Source: Rhizobium halophilum
GTDB lineage: Bacteria > Pseudomonadota > Alphaproteobacteria > Rhizobiales > Rhizobiaceae
Assembly (NCBI RefSeq): GCF_021648825.1
Contig: NZ_JAKJHS010000004.1
Location: forward strand, 299,192-363,191
Direction of reading: 5' to 3'
DNA length: 64,000 nt
Both the position numbers and the translations under genes were made by a program. Shown here one piece after another: positions 54,451-63,691 of this stretch; within the stretch, counting starts at the first letter, position 1; every line of letters starts with the position of its first letter. Under the pieces are notes generated by a model that ran no database searches, was not told the origin of the DNA, and was given only the letters and a program-made list of their open reading frames with translations.

Positions 54451-56148
54451 TCAGCCGCGCAGCTCCCGCCGCAGGATCTTGCCGACGTTCGACTTAGGCA
54501 GCTCGTTGCGGAATTCTATCAGCCGGGGCCGCTTATAGCCGGTCAGGTTGGCCGCACAATGCTCCCTCAGCGCCTCTTCCGTCAGCTCCGGATCCTTCTT
54601 GACGACGAATAGTTTCACGACCTCGCCCGAATGCGGATCGGGGACTCCGACCGCCGCGCACTCCAGCACACCCGGGTGCATGGCCGCGACCTCCTCCACC
54701 TCGTTCGGATAGACGTTGAAGCCGGAAACAAGGATCATGTCCTTCTTGCGGTCGACTATTTTCGTGTAACCGCGTTCGTCCATATAGCCCATGTCACCGG
54801 AGCGGAAGAAACCATCTTCGGTCATCACCTTGGCCGTTTCGTCCGGCCGCTGCCAGTAACCAGCCATGACTTGCGGACCGCGGATGCAGATCTCGCCGAC
54901 TTCGCCGACTGGTAGAGCGTTGCCCTCTTCATCCCGGATCGAAATGTCGGTGGATGGTAATGGCAGCCCGATCATGCCGGTAAATTCCTGGCTGTCGAAG
55001 CGGTTCGCTGTTGCGACCGGTGAAGTCTCCGACAGTCCATAGCCTTCGGTGATCGCCGTCCCCGTCATTGCCTGCCAGCGCTCCGCGACCGGCCGCTGTA
55101 CCGCCATGCCTCCGCCAAGTGCCAGGATCAGGGAGGAGAAGTCTACCTTTGCGAAATCGGCATTGTTCATCAGCGCGTTGAACAACGTGTTGAGCCCAGG
55201 GAAGACATGCACCTTGTGCTTCTGCAGTTCTTTCACGAAGGCGGGAATGTCGCGCGGGTTGGCGATCAGGATGTTGTGGCCGCCCATGGCGATCCCCATC
55301 AGCGAATTCACCGTCAGTGCGAAGATGTGATAGAGCGGCAGGGCACACACAAAGTTCAACACCTCCGGCCGCTGGCGGTTCTGGAAGGCAGCGTCGAGCC
55401 ACATCGAGATCTGCATCTTGTTGGCGATCAGATTGGCGTGCGTCAGCGTCGCCCCTTTTGAGATGCCCGTGGTCCCACCCGTGTATTGCAGGAAGGCGAC
55501 ATCATCGCTGTCGATGTCGACGGGCTTCAGGGGATGATGCGCGCCCTCTGCCAAGACCTTCTTGAAGGAGATAGCCGATGGAATGGACCATGCCGGTACC
55601 AGCTTCTTTACCTTGCGCACCACGAGATTCACCACGTGGCCCTTGAGGCCGAGCATGTCGCCCATTGAGGTGACAACAATGTGCCGAAGACCCACATTAC
55701 TCGCGACCTGCTGCACCGTGTGGGCAAAATTCTCCAGAACGAAGATCGCTTTCGCGCCCGAGTCCCTCAACTGATGCTCGAGTTCGCGCGGCGTATAGAG
55801 AGGGTTGACGTTCACCACCACGAAGCCGGCGCGCAAAATGCCGTAGGTGGCCACTGGGTTTTGCAGAACGTTCGGCATCATCACCGCGACGCGGTCGCCC
55901 TTCGCAAGGCCTTGCGCTTGCAGCCAGGCGCCAATCTTGCGCGTCTCCGCTTCAAGCTCGCGGTAGGTCATCTCCCGGCCCATGCTGGAAAAGGCGACGC
56001 GCGGAAGATATGCGTAGCAGCAGCTTTCGAAAAGTTCCGCCAGAGACTTGTAGGATAGCGCAGGCATCTCCGCAGGGACGGAAGGTGGATATGAAACGAG
56101 CCAAAGCTTCTCTGATAGATCGCCTGTTCTCACTGAAACGTCGCTCAT
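54451..56148 (-). CDS. fadD: Long-chain fatty acid-CoA ligase
   Basis: FadD activates fatty acids to acyl-CoA for beta-oxidation. The 565-residue adenylate-forming enzyme has the ATP motif LQYTGGTTGISKGATLTH near residue 215, the GYGLSETSP block, GEICIRGPQVMAGYW, the hinge RSGDMGYMDERGYTKIVDRKKDMILVSGFNVYPNEVE and the C-terminal lysine in SNVGKILRRELR. Similarity to FadD is strong through the whole length. A palindrome at 56272-56287 lies upstream and may bind a regulator. S. meliloti FadD is known to affect surface motility. Confidence 0.93.
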   Translation of the reverse strand: MSDVSVRTGDLSEKLWLVSYPPSVPAEMPALSYKSLAELFESCCYAYLPRVAFSSMGREMTYRELEAETRKIGAWLQAQGLAKGDRVAVMMPNVLQNPVATYGILRAGFVVVNVNPLYTPRELEHQLRDSGAKAIFVLENFAHTVQQVASNVGLRHIVVTSMGDMLGLKGHVVNLVVRKVKKLVPAWSIPSAISFKKVLAEGAHHPLKPVDIDSDDVAFLQYTGGTTGISKGATLTHANLIANKMQISMWLDAAFQNRQRPEVLNFVCALPLYHIFALTVNSLMGIAMGGHNILIANPRDIPAFVKELQKHKVHVFPGLNTLFNALMNNADFAKVDFSSLILALGGGMAVQRPVAERWQAMTGTAITEGYGLSETSPVATANRFDSQEFTGMIGLPLPSTDISIRDEEGNALPVGEVGEICIRGPQVMAGYWQRPDETAKVMTEDGFFRSGDMGYMDERGYTKIVDRKKDMILVSGFNVYPNEVEEVAAMHPGVLECAAVGVPDPHSGEVVKLFVVKKDPELTEEALREHCAANLTGYKRPRLIEFRNELPKSNVGKILRRELRG

Positions 56149-56790: not shown

Positions 56791-56857
56791 CCATTTGTTT
56801 AAGGCCTTCGTGGCAATCATCCCCCGTCGCCTAGAAAAAGGCTGGCGAGGGAACATC

Positions 56858-57973
56858 ATGCTGCAGAGGTCCGAAAAGGCATCAGTGCGCGATCTGGAGC
56901 GCGAGGACCTGCCTGCTGTTGCTCAACTTTTCCAGAAGACGTTCCGGAAATCGGAGCACACGCCGCCGTCTCTGGTGGCTCACCTCCACGAAATACTCTT
57001 CGCGCACCCGTGGCAGGACAGCGATCTTCCTTCAAAGATCCTGGTGTCGGAGAGCGGCCAAATACAAGGGTTCATCGGCGTCTTTCCTGGCCGTCTGGAA
57101 CTTGGCGGTCGATCGCTACGAGCCGCCTTCGCTGGCTCGCTGATGGTAGAAAACCCCGAGGCGAACCCGCTTGCGGGCGCTCGCCTGATCCGCGCCTTTC
57201 TGGCCGGACCGCAGGACCTATCGCTGACCGAGACAGCCAATGCGACGGCGCTTGGCATGTGGCAGAAGCTCTCCTTGCCCTTCGATGTCGGCTACAGCCT
57301 GAACTGGCTGCGCGTCTTCCGACCAGCCACGACCGCGGTGCGCTTGATGGAAAAGAACGTAGGTGCAGCACGCGTATTCAAGCCGATGGCATCCGTGGCC
57401 GACATGATCGCAGCGAACACAAGGCTCTCAACTCTTCGTTTCCAGCCTCAGTCACGGACTCCGCGCATCCGGTTCCGGGAGGCTACGTGCGCAGAGTTTC
57501 GCGATGCCGCCCTGATCCTTAAGGACCAGTTTCCGCTGCGGCCGCAGTGGGACATTCCCTCGCTCGATTGGCTGATCGATCAGGCCGCTCAGAAGAGGCA
57601 CTTGGGGACGCCTTTCTGGCGCGTGGGGGAGACCCGAGCGGGAGGTCTCGTAGGGGCCTATGCCTATTTCGGCCGCGCTGGGAGCCTTGGCTGGCTGCTG
57701 CAGGCGCTTTGTAGCCCCGACGCTGCCGGGGATCTCGTCGAGGACCTTTTTGCTCATGCCGATGCTGCAGGATGCGCGGGTCTTCGCGGTGCCGGTCATC
57801 CCTGGCTGACGCCGGAGCTCATCACCCGCAAGACGAGTTTTCACGGCCGCGCCTTCTATCTTGCTCATGCTCGTGACCAGTCTCTATTGGAGCCGATCCG
57901 CTTAGGCCGCGCCTTGATCAGTGGGTTGGCGGGCGAGAGTTGGATGCGACTGATAGGCGATAGCTTCGACTGA
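56858..57973 (+). CDS. GNAT-family acetyltransferase-like protein, linked to the ACP/AMP-ligase locus
   Basis: A 371-residue protein. The N-terminal half is GNAT-like (ASVRDLEREDLPAVAQLFQKTFR, then KILVSESGQIQGFIGVFPG with the typical beta strands), and the C-terminal half appears to be a second, divergent GNAT-like fold (IRFREATCAEFRDAALIL). I see no perfect acetyl-CoA loop. ATG 56858 is chosen, just after the PRC terminator. It converges with the NAD-synthase-like gene, 11 bases between stops, so it borders the ACP/ligase operon but is not part of it. An N-acylation step in that pathway is a guess. Confidence 0.7.
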   Translation: MLQRSEKASVRDLEREDLPAVAQLFQKTFRKSEHTPPSLVAHLHEILFAHPWQDSDLPSKILVSESGQIQGFIGVFPGRLELGGRSLRAAFAGSLMVENPEANPLAGARLIRAFLAGPQDLSLTETANATALGMWQKLSLPFDVGYSLNWLRVFRPATTAVRLMEKNVGAARVFKPMASVADMIAANTRLSTLRFQPQSRTPRIRFREATCAEFRDAALILKDQFPLRPQWDIPSLDWLIDQAAQKRHLGTPFWRVGETRAGGLVGAYAYFGRAGSLGWLLQALCSPDAAGDLVEDLFAHADAAGCAGLRGAGHPWLTPELITRKTSFHGRAFYLAHARDQSLLEPIRLGRALISGLAGESWMRLIGDSFD

Positions 57974-57984
57974 CGCCGTCGCCT

Positions 57985-58983
57985 TCAGTCGAGCATCGTC
58001 GCCGGCATCGCATGAAGATACTCTGCCACTTTCCGCTTCGAACCGATGTTGCGCCAGACCGCATCGACCTGATCAGGGAGTAGGCCAGCGGCCTCGCCGA
58101 CGGCCTCGCGCGGAATGCCATTGTTGAGGCCATAGAGGCACACGTCCATCCGGTCGTACGGGAGCGAGAAGTAGTATTCATCCTGCCCCTGCGGCAGGGA
58201 CCAGGTGTCCGTCGTAGGTGGTCGCCGCCGGATCTCCTCCGGCACGCCGAGCGCTTCGGCAAGCTGGTAGACCTGCGTCTTGTAGAGATGGGCGATCGGC
58301 TTGAAGTCCGCCGCGCCGTCACCGTTCTTCACGAAGAAGCCCTGATCGTATTCCAGCCGGTTGGGGGTGCCGGCAACTGCATAGCTCAGCCGGTCCGCAT
58401 GGTAGTATTCGATCTGCTTGCGTGTCCGCTGCTTCATGTTCGCAGCGGCGATCATCCCGAGGTACACATCGAGCGGCATGCGATGACGGCTCTGCTCTCC
58501 GGACGGCGAGGCAACGACGAGCCAGGAAATGTTGTAACCGCGGCTGGAAAGGGCATTCTCGAGCACGACCTTGCACCCCCAGCCTTCACCGAACTCAGGA
58601 ACAATCTGCCGAATGAACCCGTCGCGTCTCGCGTAGCAGCCAGAGGCGGCAAGGGCCGGACCGATGTCTTCCAACACCGTCTCCACCCCTGTGGCAGTTG
58701 CGAGCGACTGTCCCAGACGCAGGCTCTCGGGATCGGAATCGTGCTCGGGCATGAAGATGCCCGTGACCTTTCTCGGCCCCAGGGCACGAGCGCACAGGGC
58801 CGCCGTAACGCTAGAATCTATGCCGCCTGATAGTCCCAGAACGACGCCTCGCTTGCGCAGGTCCTTCAGCACCGCCGTGCGGATCCAGGCGCAGATGCGT
58901 TCGATCTCCGCTTCAGCGTCGAGCCGGAGGCTTTCAGGAGAGAAGGACATCTCATGCGCGAAGTGCTTCATGCTCTGAGTCAT
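57985..58983 (-). CDS. NAD synthase-like, ammonia-dependent amidoligase
   Basis: A 332-residue N-type ATP pyrophosphatase of the NadE family. It has the P-loop LGLSGGIDSSVTAALCA (residues 50-66), ANMKQRTRKQIEYYHA, GTPNRLEYDQGFFVKNGDGAADFKPIAHLYKTQV and PPTTDTWSLPQGQDE, so the ATP and metal sites look intact. It lacks the glutaminase (nitrilase) domain of the long bacterial NadE and has an insert of about 40 residues around 120-165. It overlaps the AMP-ligase gene by four bases (ATGA). True NAD synthesis is possible, but the context with a carrier protein and ligase suggests amidation of another carboxylate. Confidence 0.75.
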   Translation of the reverse strand: MTQSMKHFAHEMSFSPESLRLDAEAEIERICAWIRTAVLKDLRKRGVVLGLSGGIDSSVTAALCARALGPRKVTGIFMPEHDSDPESLRLGQSLATATGVETVLEDIGPALAASGCYARRDGFIRQIVPEFGEGWGCKVVLENALSSRGYNISWLVVASPSGEQSRHRMPLDVYLGMIAAANMKQRTRKQIEYYHADRLSYAVAGTPNRLEYDQGFFVKNGDGAADFKPIAHLYKTQVYQLAEALGVPEEIRRRPPTTDTWSLPQGQDEYYFSLPYDRMDVCLYGLNNGIPREAVGEAAGLLPDQVDAVWRNIGSKRKVAEYLHAMPATMLD

Positions 58984-60530
58984 ACGGCATTCTCCAGTTG
59001 TGGTTCGGCCTCGACGCCGACGCTCATTCTGATCTTGCCGGTCGTCGTGCGGGGCAAGGCTGCCCGGAACTCGACGCTTTTCGGCACCATGTAGTCTTCA
59101 AGGTATTGGGCGCAGTGACGGATGACATCCCTCTCCGAAAGCTGGCGCCCCTCTTCCAGCGCCACATGGGCACGCACGACCTGGCCGAAGACCGGATCCT
59201 CGACACCGGTCACGGCAGCTTCGCGAACACCGTCAAGCGCGTAAAGCACCCGCTCAACTTCTTGAGGGCTGACCTTCTCGCCGCGTGTCTTGATGATGTC
59301 GTCCTTCCGGCTGACGAAATAGAGGAAGCCCTCTTCGTCCGTCCGAAAAAGATCGCCCGTTGATAGACGTCTTTCCCTGTCCGCAGTCCTGAGCTCCTGC
59401 AATGCGGTTTCCGCGTCGCACCAATAGCCGGCCATTACGTGCGGCCCCTCCACCACGAGTTCCCCTATGGTGCCTGGGGTCGCAGGCAAGCCCTCCTCAT
59501 CGACGACGAAAGCGCGCGTGCCCGGGATTGCCTTGCCGACGGAGGTGGGACGCTTGGCGAGCTCTTCTGGTGAGAGATAGCTCACCCGCAGACATTCCGT
59601 CTGACCATACATGACAAAGACCTTCGTCTGCGGCAGGATCTCTTGGAGGCGCGCACTCAGCACAGGCGGCAGGGCAGCTGCGGCGCTGGTCACGTATCGC
59701 AGGTGCGGAAGAAAGCCCTCAGGAAGGTCCTTCGTCCCGGCGATCAACGCGGCCATCGCAGGGACTAGCGGAAGACCGGTGGCCTTCTCTTCAGCCAGCC
59801 GGTCCATCATCTTTCGCGGGAAAGCGAAGCTTTTCTCAAGCACCAGCGTCCCACCAACGCAGACCATCGTCACCAACTGCGTGATGCCGTAGCCGAAGGA
59901 AAGCGGAAGCACGCTCAGCACAATCTCGCTGGCCGTGTTTTCCAGGTAGCTGATGATCGACTGGCAGGCCGCATCCACATTCGCATGGGTCAGCATTACC
60001 CCCTTGGGGTCGCCGGTAGATCCGGAGGTGTGGATCAGGAGGGCAAGAGCGGTATCGTCGAGAAATCGCGGAAGCGATTTTGTTTGCGTCCTGCGCAAGA
60101 GCTCCTCAAGCCGCAGATGATCTCCACCCAAATCCGAAGGTGCTTGTGTCGCGATGACGACCATCTTCCTGCCCGACAAGGCGATCGCAGCGCGGACGTT
60201 TGGAAGATACCGCGCGTGCGTGATGACAGCCGCAGGTTCAGTGCTGGAGAAGATGGCGGCAAGCTTTTGTGCCTTCATCGATGGGTGGAGTGGGCAGGCG
60301 ATGGCGCCCGCCTTCCAGGTCCCGAAGAAGCTGACGGGTGCTTCACCGTCGTTGTCGAGCAGGAAGGCAATCCGGTCGTTTGGCCTCACAGCCATTGCCA
60401 CCAGTGCAGCGGCGAGACTGCCGGAACGATCATCAATGTCGGCATAGCTGAGGCGGCTCTCGCCAGCGACGACAGCAGTTTTCCCTGCAAACCGTTCCAC
60501 GCTGTTGCCAAGCCTTGCCTCGATGCGCAT
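58980..60530 (-). CDS. Acyl/aminoacyl-AMP ligase (class I adenylate-forming enzyme)
   Basis: A 516-residue adenylate-forming enzyme. The ATP motif is LLIHTSGSTGDPKGVMLTH (residues 164-182), then MYGQTECLRVSYLSPEE, ELVVEGPHVMAGYWCDAE, STGDLFRTDEEGFLYFVSRKDDIIKTRGEKVSPQEVE and the C-terminal lysine in TTTGKIRMS. It resembles ligases that load free-standing carrier proteins (for example those of exosortase-A clusters) more than fadD. It starts ten bases after the carrier-protein gene and overlaps the nadE-like gene. The acyl substrate cannot be read from the sequence. Confidence 0.82.
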   Translation of the reverse strand: MRIEARLGNSVERFAGKTAVVAGESRLSYADIDDRSGSLAAALVAMAVRPNDRIAFLLDNDGEAPVSFFGTWKAGAIACPLHPSMKAQKLAAIFSSTEPAAVITHARYLPNVRAAIALSGRKMVVIATQAPSDLGGDHLRLEELLRRTQTKSLPRFLDDTALALLIHTSGSTGDPKGVMLTHANVDAACQSIISYLENTASEIVLSVLPLSFGYGITQLVTMVCVGGTLVLEKSFAFPRKMMDRLAEEKATGLPLVPAMAALIAGTKDLPEGFLPHLRYVTSAAAALPPVLSARLQEILPQTKVFVMYGQTECLRVSYLSPEELAKRPTSVGKAIPGTRAFVVDEEGLPATPGTIGELVVEGPHVMAGYWCDAETALQELRTADRERRLSTGDLFRTDEEGFLYFVSRKDDIIKTRGEKVSPQEVERVLYALDGVREAAVTGVEDPVFGQVVRAHVALEEGRQLSERDVIRHCAQYLEDYMVPKSVEFRAALPRTTTGKIRMSVGVEAEPQLENAV

Positions 60531-60540
60531 GGCTTGGCGT

Positions 60541-60798
60541 CTACGCAGCCACGGGCAGCTTACGTGCCAGATAGGACGTCATGTTATCGATGCTGTCGAG
60601 ATTTTCCGGGATGATTTCCTCATCGGCGATTGTGATCCCATAGGTGGCCTCGAGGAAAGCGATCAGTTCGAGGACGCCAGTGGAGTCAATAATGCCTCCC
60701 TCGAGGAGCGATTGACTGTCAGTAATATCAGCATCCGCCCGAAACAGAAAATTCTCGGAAATGAATTCACGCACCGCAGAATGAAATCTCTGGGCCAT
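60541..60798 (-). CDS. Acyl carrier protein, free-standing
   Basis: An 85-residue carrier protein. The phosphopantetheine serine is in IIDSTGVLELIAFLE (Ser39), and the C-terminal helix is IDNMTSYLARKL. It lacks the DSLDxVEL form of housekeeping AcpP and lies outside any fatty-acid-synthesis context, so it is a specialised ACP. It leads a three-gene reverse operon (acp, AMP-ligase, nadE-like) with gaps of ten bases and a four-base overlap. Its divergent neighbour is xthA. Confidence 0.85.
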   Translation of the reverse strand: MAQRFHSAVREFISENFLFRADADITDSQSLLEGGIIDSTGVLELIAFLEATYGITIADEEIIPENLDSIDNMTSYLARKLPVAA

Positions 60799-61844: not shown

Positions 61845-62771
61845 CTAAAGTATCGCCCGCTTGTCGCGCCGGCCCAGCCGCTTGAGCAAATAGTCCACCT
61901 CCGCACGCGCCGTGTCCGTCAGTGCCAGCCCCGGCTTACGCTGCGCATCCGACGTGATGACGCCGCGCCGCATCAGCACATGCTTGCGCACCGCAAGGCC
62001 GATCCCGAGTTGCTGCTCGTAACGGATCAGTGGCAAATGCGCGTCGAAGAGGTCGTGCGCCTCGTCCCGCTTCCGGTCGGCGAGGAGGCCGACGAGTTCC
62101 ACCAGCATGTCCGGAAAACCATATCCGGTCATCGCGCCATCGGCACCGCGCTCCGGCTCGAAGTCGAGGAACATGCCGCCATTGCCGCAAAGGATCGAGA
62201 AGGGCCGTAGCTCGCCGGCCTTCTGCATGGCGCGGAGCCTGGAAATCTTTTCAAGGCCCGGCCAGTCCTCGTGCTTCAGCATCAGGCAGGACGGGTGGTT
62301 CGAGATGATCTTCGCCACCACACTCGGCGACATCACCACGCTGAGCGTCAGCGGATAATCCTGCAGCACCCAGGGCACGTCCTCGCCGACCGCCTCCACC
62401 GCCTGGCCGAAGTAGTTGACGATCTGCTCGTCCGTCCGAAGCGCCGGTGTCGGCGCGATCATCACGCCGGCCGCCCCCATGTCCATCGCATCTCGGGCGA
62501 GGGAGCGCATGGCAGCAAAGCCGGGCGCCGAGACGCCGACGATGACAGGCACCTTCGACCGGCCCACCACCTGTCGGATGATTGCCCGGCTTTCCGCCGG
62601 TTCCAGCTTCGGCGCCTCGCCCATGATGCCGAGGATGGTGATGCCGGTGCAGCCGCTGTCCTGGTAGAAATCTGTAAGCCTGTCGATGGAGGTCGTGTCG
62701 AGCGCGCCGTCCGGCAGGAATGGCGTCGTGGCGATGGCGTAGACGCCTTTGGAATCTGCAGAGAAGCTCAT
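61845..62771 (-). CDS. Dihydrodipicolinate synthase family lyase (not DapA)
   Basis: A 308-residue TIM-barrel aldolase of the DapA/N-acetylneuraminate lyase superfamily. The Schiff-base lysine is in CLMLKHEDWPG and the catalytic tyrosine in VLQDYPLTLS; the substrate loop is ILGIMGEAPKLEPAES. Paralogues of this type cleave or dehydrate keto-acids. The usual DapA pattern GTTGE is replaced by GIMGE, so lysine synthesis is unlikely. It is translationally coupled to the upstream RraA-like gene (overlap), so both probably act in one keto-acid catabolic route. Start ATG 62771 is preceded by GGAAGG. Confidence 0.8.
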   Translation of the reverse strand: MSFSADSKGVYAIATTPFLPDGALDTTSIDRLTDFYQDSGCTGITILGIMGEAPKLEPAESRAIIRQVVGRSKVPVIVGVSAPGFAAMRSLARDAMDMGAAGVMIAPTPALRTDEQIVNYFGQAVEAVGEDVPWVLQDYPLTLSVVMSPSVVAKIISNHPSCLMLKHEDWPGLEKISRLRAMQKAGELRPFSILCGNGGMFLDFEPERGADGAMTGYGFPDMLVELVGLLADRKRDEAHDLFDAHLPLIRYEQQLGIGLAVRKHVLMRRGVITSDAQRKPGLALTDTARAEVDYLLKRLGRRDKRAIL

Positions 62772-63472
62772 CGTGCGTCCTTCCACGCCTGGTAGCGCGC
62801 CTTCGTCTCGGCATTCATCGGATAAAGGCCAGGCAGCGGGACCCCCCGGTCCACCTCCGTCATGATCCACGCTTCCATTTGCTCCTGTTCCGGAGCCTCC
62901 GCCAGCACCGCGTCAAGGAATTTGGCAGGGATCAGGACGGCACCATCCTGGTCGGCGACGACAATGTCGTCCGGGAAGACGGCGACGCCGCCACAGGCGA
63001 TCGGCTCCTGCCAGCCGACGAAGGTGAGGCCGGCAACCGAAGGCGGAGCGGCAACGCCTTCGCACCAAACGTCCATGCCGGTGCCGAGCACGCCCTCTGC
63101 GTCACGTACGACCCCGTCGGTCACCAGCGCGGCGACGCCGCGCTTGACCATGCGCGAGCAGAGAATGTCGCCGAAGATGCCGGCGTCCAGCACGCCCATG
63201 GCGTCGGCAACCGCCACGCAGCCCTCCGGCATGGCCTCGATTGCGGCGCGGGTCGAGATGGGGGAGGCCCAGCTTTCCGGCGTTGCCAGGTCCTCGCGGG
63301 CAGGAACGAAGCGCAGCGTGAAGGCTGGGCCGACCACACGCGCCTGTCCCGGCTTCAGCGGCTTCGTGCCGCGCATCCAGACGTTGCGCAGCCCCTTCTT
63401 GAGCAGGACGGTCGTCAACGTGGCGGTGGAGACGTTCTTCAACGTCTCGACGATCTTCGGATCAGGCGGCAT
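62768..63472 (-). CDS. RraA-like / HMG aldolase-family protein
   Basis: A 234-residue member of the RraA-like fold, which includes 4-hydroxy-4-methyl-2-oxoglutarate aldolase and the RNase E inhibitor RraA. Family blocks are AIFGDILCSRMVKRGVAALVTDGVVRDAEGV (with a metal-binding Asp), and GGVAVFPDDIVVADQDGAVLIP. At 234 residues it is longer than RraA (about 160), which favours an aldolase or decarboxylase role. ATG 63472 is preceded by GAGGAG; a longer frame reaches 63508. Its stop overlaps the DapA-like start, so they form a two-gene operon. Confidence 0.78.
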   Translation of the reverse strand: MPPDPKIVETLKNVSTATLTTVLLKKGLRNVWMRGTKPLKPGQARVVGPAFTLRFVPAREDLATPESWASPISTRAAIEAMPEGCVAVADAMGVLDAGIFGDILCSRMVKRGVAALVTDGVVRDAEGVLGTGMDVWCEGVAAPPSVAGLTFVGWQEPIACGGVAVFPDDIVVADQDGAVLIPAKFLDAVLAEAPEQEQMEAWIMTEVDRGVPLPGLYPMNAETKARYQAWKDAR

Positions 63473-63691
63473 GGAATCTCCTCGCGCGGCGGAAGGCAAA
63501 TCCTTCACGGCGCGGGATATTCGATTGCCCTTTGCAGCGCGTCAAGGAAGGAAGGTCTGCTTTCTGGCTTCTCACTTCAGAAGTCGCAAAGCATCCGCGT
63601 TCGTGGGGATGGCGGCGGACGCTCGTGCGAGGCAGGCGTCGAGAACCCCACACGTCACGCCAATGCGGTGCCCACGCGGGGGCGAAGCGGG

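Follow-up and report, generated by a model that had tools for sequence, protein, structure and literature searches.

Among the described systems closest to the one treated here is a pair of genes on pSymB of Sinorhizobium meliloti, where SMb20650 is co-transcribed with the acyl carrier protein (ACP) gene SMb20651, according to passages of PMC7232532. The same passages tell that SMb20650 together with AcpS in Escherichia coli gave acylated SMb20651, a result credited there to Ramos-Vega 2009, and that FadD is not replaceable by SMb20650. The 2009 study also stands in the reference lists of PMC9386255 and PMC12794305, smb20650 is listed in a passage of PMC10315480 among genes down under predation, and the function of the SMb20651 ACP is said to need further investigation in a passage of PMC5686131; the passages of these papers that concern the pair name no product of the system. 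Here we describe a homologous ACP and ligase in a 64,000-nucleotide stretch of the Rhizobium halophilum genome (assembly GCF_021648825.1, contig NZ_JAKJHS010000004.1, positions 299,192 to 363,191 of the forward strand; the whole stretch is called the window below), in which they form an operon with a NadE-like gene.

We suggest that this trio is the core of a co-inherited acyl-ACP amide enzyme set, which possibly contributes an amide-containing component to an extracellular polysaccharide. The set would consist of the carrier protein, the adenosine monophosphate (AMP) ligase, the NadE-like protein, an AsnB-like protein whose gene is unlinked here, and usually a predicted N-myristoyltransferase-like acyltransferase. 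As a whole this explanation is tentative, and we put its probability at about 0.38. Members of the set occur in S. meliloti pSymB, Neorhizobium, Shinella, Mesorhizobium and Azospirillum. The set is built from known gene families, and its ACP and ligase have names already; we did not meet this combination of genes in the literature searched, which is a weak negative as most subscription papers lie outside its coverage. An earlier note on the window, made from its sequence by a model, had called the trio a candidate undescribed pathway. This stands in so far as no account of the pathway was found in the same literature, but not for the ACP and ligase, which had been partly studied in S. meliloti.

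The trio and its conservation

The genes in the window to which the argument refers are the following:

60541..60798, minus strand, free-standing ACP of 85 amino acids (open reading frame (ORF) list, Pfam, NCBIfam, alignment)
58980..60530, minus strand, AMP-forming ligase of 516 amino acids, predicted to load the ACP (ORF list, Pfam, NCBIfam, motifs)
57985..58983, minus strand, NadE-like ATP-pyrophosphatase of 332 amino acids without a glutaminase domain (ORF list, Pfam, NCBIfam)
56858..57973, plus strand, convergent gene of about 371 amino acids (392 in the ORF from TTG at 56795), predicted double-GNAT acyltransferase (structure model)

The ACP and ligase genes are separated by a 10-base gap (60531–60540), and the ligase and NadE-like genes overlap by 4 bases (58980–58983). 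The layout given in the earlier note (coordinates, gap, overlap and reverse strand) is exact according to the ORF list. Its description of an ACP with an intact pantetheine serine is borne out by Ser39 within Asp38-Ser39-Thr40, and its description of a NadE-like enzyme without a glutaminase domain by the Pfam scan, which found none. It overlooked three things: the AsnB-like partner encoded elsewhere in the genome, the acyltransferase-like gene that converges on the trio and the link to polysaccharides. Scans for promoters and terminators gave results close to those for shuffled sequence.

A search of genome contigs found 43 loci that encode relatives of the NadE-like protein with 67–90% identity, and together with 19 loci from a second search these make up a sample of 62, one of the 63 listed (L097, 31% identical and another NadE) being excluded. 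Two pairs of loci (L074/L085 and L047/L093) seem to be duplicate contigs, so that at most 60 of the 62 are distinct. The ACP and ligase are encoded in the same locus as the NadE-like gene in 62/62, and five further loci agree. The identity of the relatives in the 43 loci and this constant togetherness argue that the trio is not a chance grouping. The three genes are thus conserved jointly, a point on which the earlier note had wanted its proposal checked, and the genome holds another NadE besides, as described below, so that neither outcome which the note had named as refuting it occurred.

An unlinked AsnB-like partner

The cluster includes a gene for an AsnB-like protein (about 650 residues) in 22 of the 62 loci. 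The remaining 40 are all of the window's kind, and in them no AsnB-like gene was found within about 8 kilobases (kb). When the S. meliloti AsnB-like protein was used as query on the genome of R. halophilum, it returned one match of 68% identity (G000:C1:756823) that is unlinked to the trio, the next match being 39% identical. We then compared presence across 297 genomes of the order, R. halophilum included, counting NadE-like proteins that score over the family cut-off and AsnB-like proteins at E 1e-150 or better. The 20 genomes with a NadE-like protein are exactly the 20 with an AsnB-like orthologue; the two genes are linked in 18 of them and unlinked in R. halophilum and one other (G295). 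A repeat of the AsnB search at E 1e-40 matched 169 of the 297 genomes, with the 20 scoring at least 604.7 bits and the next matches listed at most 435.7 bits. The chance of obtaining identical sets is about 1.6e-31 counted by genome and 7.7e-17 counted by genus (12 of 122), under an assumption of independence that is not fully true. Nineteen further genomes of the window type contain one AsnB-like match each (E 1e-100), which lies on another contig than the trio in 16 and on the same contig more than 1 megabase away in 3. This shared presence of an unlinked AsnB-like gene is the strongest new result of the analysis: the AsnB-like and trio genes lie far from each other and yet are kept by the same genomes, so that they most likely work together.

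All three AsnB-like proteins inspected carry an N-terminal MCG and an SGGLDS motif, and that of R. halophilum scores 496.8 bits with the asparagine synthase model TIGR01536, over the cut-off of 267.1. In one of the 19 further genomes (G619) the AsnB-like match covers only residues 191–643, and the gene (L237, 8668–10610) seems to be split over two frames, as do its glycosyltransferase neighbours, which could be due to sequencing error or decay.

The NadE-like protein and true NAD synthetases

Those listed members of the NadE-like family that have a name are called NAD(+) synthase or similar (NAD, nicotinamide adenine dinucleotide); a relative is also on record outside Pseudomonadota, in Acidimicrobiales. 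NadE itself is dealt with in passages of PMC7196632 and PMC3376133. The protein of the window matches Pfam NAD_synthase PF02540 with 172.8 bits, the NCBIfam 'NAD(+) synthase' subfamily NF002048/PRK00876 with 500.8 bits (cut-off 313) and TIGR00552 with 165.2 bits (cut-off 63.65). Its structure model (mean predicted local distance difference test score 90.2) matches the NAD synthetase fold, and the SGGxDS ATP loop and the adenylating ATP-pyrophosphatase fold are both present. At 30 of the 34 columns that are at least 85% conserved in 13 true NadEs it keeps the same consensus, with Val instead of Thr at position 218. Judged by these residues the protein should adenylate some substrate, though sequence does not settle which.

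One reading of this likeness makes the protein an additional NAD synthase, dependent on ammonia, whose gene accompanies an acyl-carrier operon to which it is unrelated. We find this quite unlikely. Unlike NAD synthetase, the NadE-like branch carries about 60 inserted residues of its own (around residues 112–175), among which G115, Y117, R119, R120 and K138 are invariant, and its gene stands in an operon with an ACP and a ligase, in a genome with a second NadE. The latter is a protein of 684 residues with CN_hydrolase and NAD_synthase domains, encoded on contig C40, and scores 1057.4 bits with PRK02628 (cut-off 473); it is the long glutamine-dependent enzyme that the earlier note had proposed to look for, and it rules out that the NadE-like protein is the sole NadE of the genome. 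By frame length, all 20 genomes of the order that encode the NadE-like protein have, apart from it, a NadE match whose frame spans at least 558 residues. In a tree with the 13 true NadEs, to which the window protein is 21–33% identical, 47 NadE-like sequences form a single clade (support 0.79), so that the phylogeny which the earlier note had also wanted sets the branch apart. The protein further stays under the cut-offs of three other NAD synthase models (PRK13980, 172.1 against 255 bits; PRK00768, 98.7 against 250; PRK13981, 76.1 against 479), and a presence pattern identical to that of the AsnB-like gene is not what an unrelated NAD synthase would lead one to expect. If the co-inheritance can be taken at face value, the family name is misleading for this branch.

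Two other candidates were set aside. A further PF02540 match in the genome (G000:C34:241510) looks like GuaA by sequence, judged by eye, and was not taken as another NadE. A reading of the genes as a defence system was rejected, the NadE-like protein having one weak CARF-type PADLOC match (19.2 bits) and the other three proteins none.

Carrier protein, ligase and predicted acyltransferase

The window ligase matches PF00501 with 269.5 bits and has the C-terminal domain PF13193, and motifs A3, A5, A7, A8 and A10 are present in the alignment. The ACP is barely over the cut-off of Pfam PP-binding PF00550 (20.9 against 20.8 bits), and its DST at the pantetheine position is common to 7/7 aligned ACPs. 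Its top NCBIfam model is ACP_for_OlsHI, which represents the ornithine-lipid ACP (OlsH/OlsI) of planctomycetes; the score of 50.1 bits is under the cut-off of 130, and the GH3-like OlsH named in the title of a paper on that system is not in the trio.

The pSymB operon of S. meliloti has the order asnB, ACP, ligase, nadE. Since its ligase is the sole PF00501 match on pSymB in strain 2011, the ACP and ligase of this cassette should be SMb20651 and SMb20650, an identification that we infer from uniqueness; in the record of strain 1021 the NadE-like gene lies at almost the same pSymB position. Other ACP matches on pSymB (677605 and 633150 in strain 2011) were ruled out as SMb20651, as no AMP ligase can adjoin them. 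In both systems a homologous ligase (52% identical) lies beside a homologous ACP, and the ACPs align, the S. meliloti one scoring 13.8 bits in Pfam, under the cut-off. They differ in that the S. meliloti AsnB-like gene is linked and that no relative of the double-GNAT gene was found in the 20,951-base S. meliloti locus. Elsewhere on pSymB (L140, 4482–9517) another ACP lies beside MBOAT and HAD-family genes, with a capsular polysaccharide gene not far away.

The idea in the earlier note that the ligase acylates the ACP agrees with the acylated ACP reported for the S. meliloti orthologues in the passages of PMC7232532. The note's further reading, in the form that the NadE-like enzyme itself amidates a small acid carried by the ACP, fits the gene order and overlap as well as that reported acylation. 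We hold this version to be very improbable, and the constant AsnB-like partner would be left unexplained by it. A thioester-bound acid, moreover, offers no free carboxylate for adenylation unless it is a diacid, and this too counts against it.

The structure model of the convergent gene matches an N-myristoyltransferase-like double-GNAT fold, which it shares with N-myristoyltransferase and Eis-type acetyltransferases. The structural alignments show 9–14% identity, and unlike in those enzymes the donor here would be acyl-ACP. The profile of this gene compared with PDB sequences gave no significant match, the best being an N-myristoyltransferase at E 0.54. A relative of the gene is found in 54 of the 62 loci, and profile matches of at least 407 bits occur in 12 genomes, all of them within the 20 described above, the next genome scoring 282.9 bits.

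A possible polysaccharide product

In the explanation that we favour, the ligase would acylate holo-ACP, as reported for the S. meliloti orthologues, and the double-GNAT protein would, judging by fold and neighbourhood, move the acyl group from the ACP to an amino group. The AsnB-like enzyme is predicted from its family to free ammonia from glutamine by way of its N-terminal cysteine and to amidate an AMP-activated carboxylate. The NadE-like enzyme, which has kept its adenylating site and has no glutaminase of its own, would form a further amide, for which the AsnB-like partner may supply the ammonia. Gene position suggests that the product could be an acylated, amidated sugar unit or precursor, and that Wzx/Wzz-type machinery, like the one encoded beside the AsnB-like gene in relatives, may export it. 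A more specific form of this proposal, in which the NadE-like protein derives from NAD synthetase but now amidates a nucleotide-sugar uronic acid with ammonia from the AsnB-like enzyme, giving an acylated uronamide for a bacterial exopolysaccharide, is prompted by the likeness of such an acid to nicotinic acid adenine dinucleotide, a ring carboxylate joined by pyrophosphate to a nucleoside; in this detail we regard it as distinctly unlikely.

The polysaccharide link comes from gene neighbourhoods and from model matches. Near the 21 unlinked AsnB-like genes (R. halophilum, G295 and the 19 further genomes) we found a Wzz-like relative in 13, a flippase relative in 10 and a paralogue of the acyltransferase in 9. 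The queries were taken from one of these loci (L194), which is included in the counts and is the one locus at which the Pfam names of the Wzz-like and flippase neighbours were checked; at another (L233) a gene resembles a family-2 glycosyltransferase, judged by eye. Plasmids of Azospirillum thermophilum and A. ramasamyi carry the genes for the ACP, the ligase and the AsnB-like and NadE-like proteins inside loci with an O-antigen ligase, glycosyltransferases and a polysaccharide deacetylase. Furthermore, the top NCBIfam model of the window ligase (TIGR03098, ligase) and the second-best of the R. halophilum AsnB-like protein (TIGR03108, amidotransferase) are both models of the XrtA/PEP-CTERM exopolysaccharide module. 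The likeness stops short of the curated cut-offs in both cases (393.3 against 592.35 bits and 440.2 against 816.9 bits), and that module is not known to have a NadE-like member. In L194 (11331–12629) and similar loci the double-GNAT paralogue adjoins the unlinked AsnB-like gene, between the flippase and Wzz-like genes.

Several observations weigh against the favoured explanation. The AsnB-like gene of R. halophilum itself is without any of the polysaccharide neighbours tested, and the 13 loci with a Wzz-like gene stem from related species and may reflect few events. Among the eight annotated linked loci, a polysaccharide setting is seen only in the two Azospirillum ones: one glycosyltransferase each lies some kilobases off in Shinella (L113) and Mesorhizobium (L121), and no glycosyltransferase or similar gene is annotated near the set in S. 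meliloti (L111) or in L112, L120 and L122. The link is therefore suggestive and not general. The acyltransferase-like gene was not found in 8 of the 62 loci (L080, L081, L086, L087, L088, L092, L094 and L096), and the GNAT-family gene that follows the Azospirillum set is unmatched by the profile of the window gene, the pair sharing a weak 25% stretch. Kinship among the genomes weakens the argument from the co-occurrence of the AsnB-like and NadE-like genes. An AsnB-like protein that passes TIGR01536 could, by its sequence, make asparagine, and with its 30 kept NadE columns the NadE-like protein may still take a NAD-type substrate. At what we take to be the position of the anchoring Asp of amino-acid adenylation domains, four of eight ligases have Asp and four have Gly. 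It is the asparagine synthase score, and the Azospirillum set not sharing the same acyltransferase, that have lowered our confidence.

Alternatively, the product of the same enzymes could be a lipid (an N-acyl amino acid or amine) or a diffusible signal, and no part of a polysaccharide. A fatty acid would then be loaded on the ACP by the ligase, and an amino acid would be acylated by the double-GNAT protein and amidated by the two synthetases. The S. meliloti cassette, which has no annotated polysaccharide neighbour, suits this reading, as do the ornithine-lipid ACP as top NCBIfam match of the carrier and the resemblance of the acyltransferase-like model to the fold of long-chain N-acyltransferases. 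That ACP match is far under its cut-off, however, and the Wzz-like genes beside the AsnB-like gene, the presence of the set in Azospirillum polysaccharide loci and the failure of SMb20650 to replace FadD in the passages of PMC7232532 do not favour a lipid, so that we consider this reading doubtful while giving it a real chance.

Some loci point in yet another direction. Four of them encode an adenylation-thioesterase protein directly before the NadE-like gene:

L086, 9459-12251, adenylation-thioesterase protein
L088, 5929-8160, adenylation-thioesterase protein
L094, 5681-8416, adenylation-thioesterase protein
L128, 2359-5115, adenylation-thioesterase protein

In L081 and L087 a thioesterase gene has the same position, and a PrmC-like methyltransferase is encoded close by in L081, L086, L087, L094 and L128. 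These six clusters, which have such a protein in place of the acyltransferase-like gene, would suit a small molecule too, and this weakens the favoured explanation. The product might be a nonribosomal-type natural product of small size, for which the ACP would carry the starter unit and the amide synthetases would do the tailoring. We regard this as unlikely, since the thioesterase variant makes up part of the sample only, the window shows no such protein next to the set, and none is annotated in the loci of S. meliloti, Shinella and Azospirillum.

Neighbouring genes

The earlier note had stated that no fatty-acid gene is nearby. There is none inside the operon, but a gene for a FadD-type long-chain acyl-CoA (coenzyme A) ligase lies outside it at 54451–56148 on the minus strand (NF005463, 1022 bits), adjoining pgi. 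The FadD-type gene and pgi remain close to the trio in close relatives. On the other side of the trio, a DHDPS-family gene overlaps an RraA-like aldolase gene (61845–63508, minus strand), and both genes have relatives near the trio in several closely related genomes.

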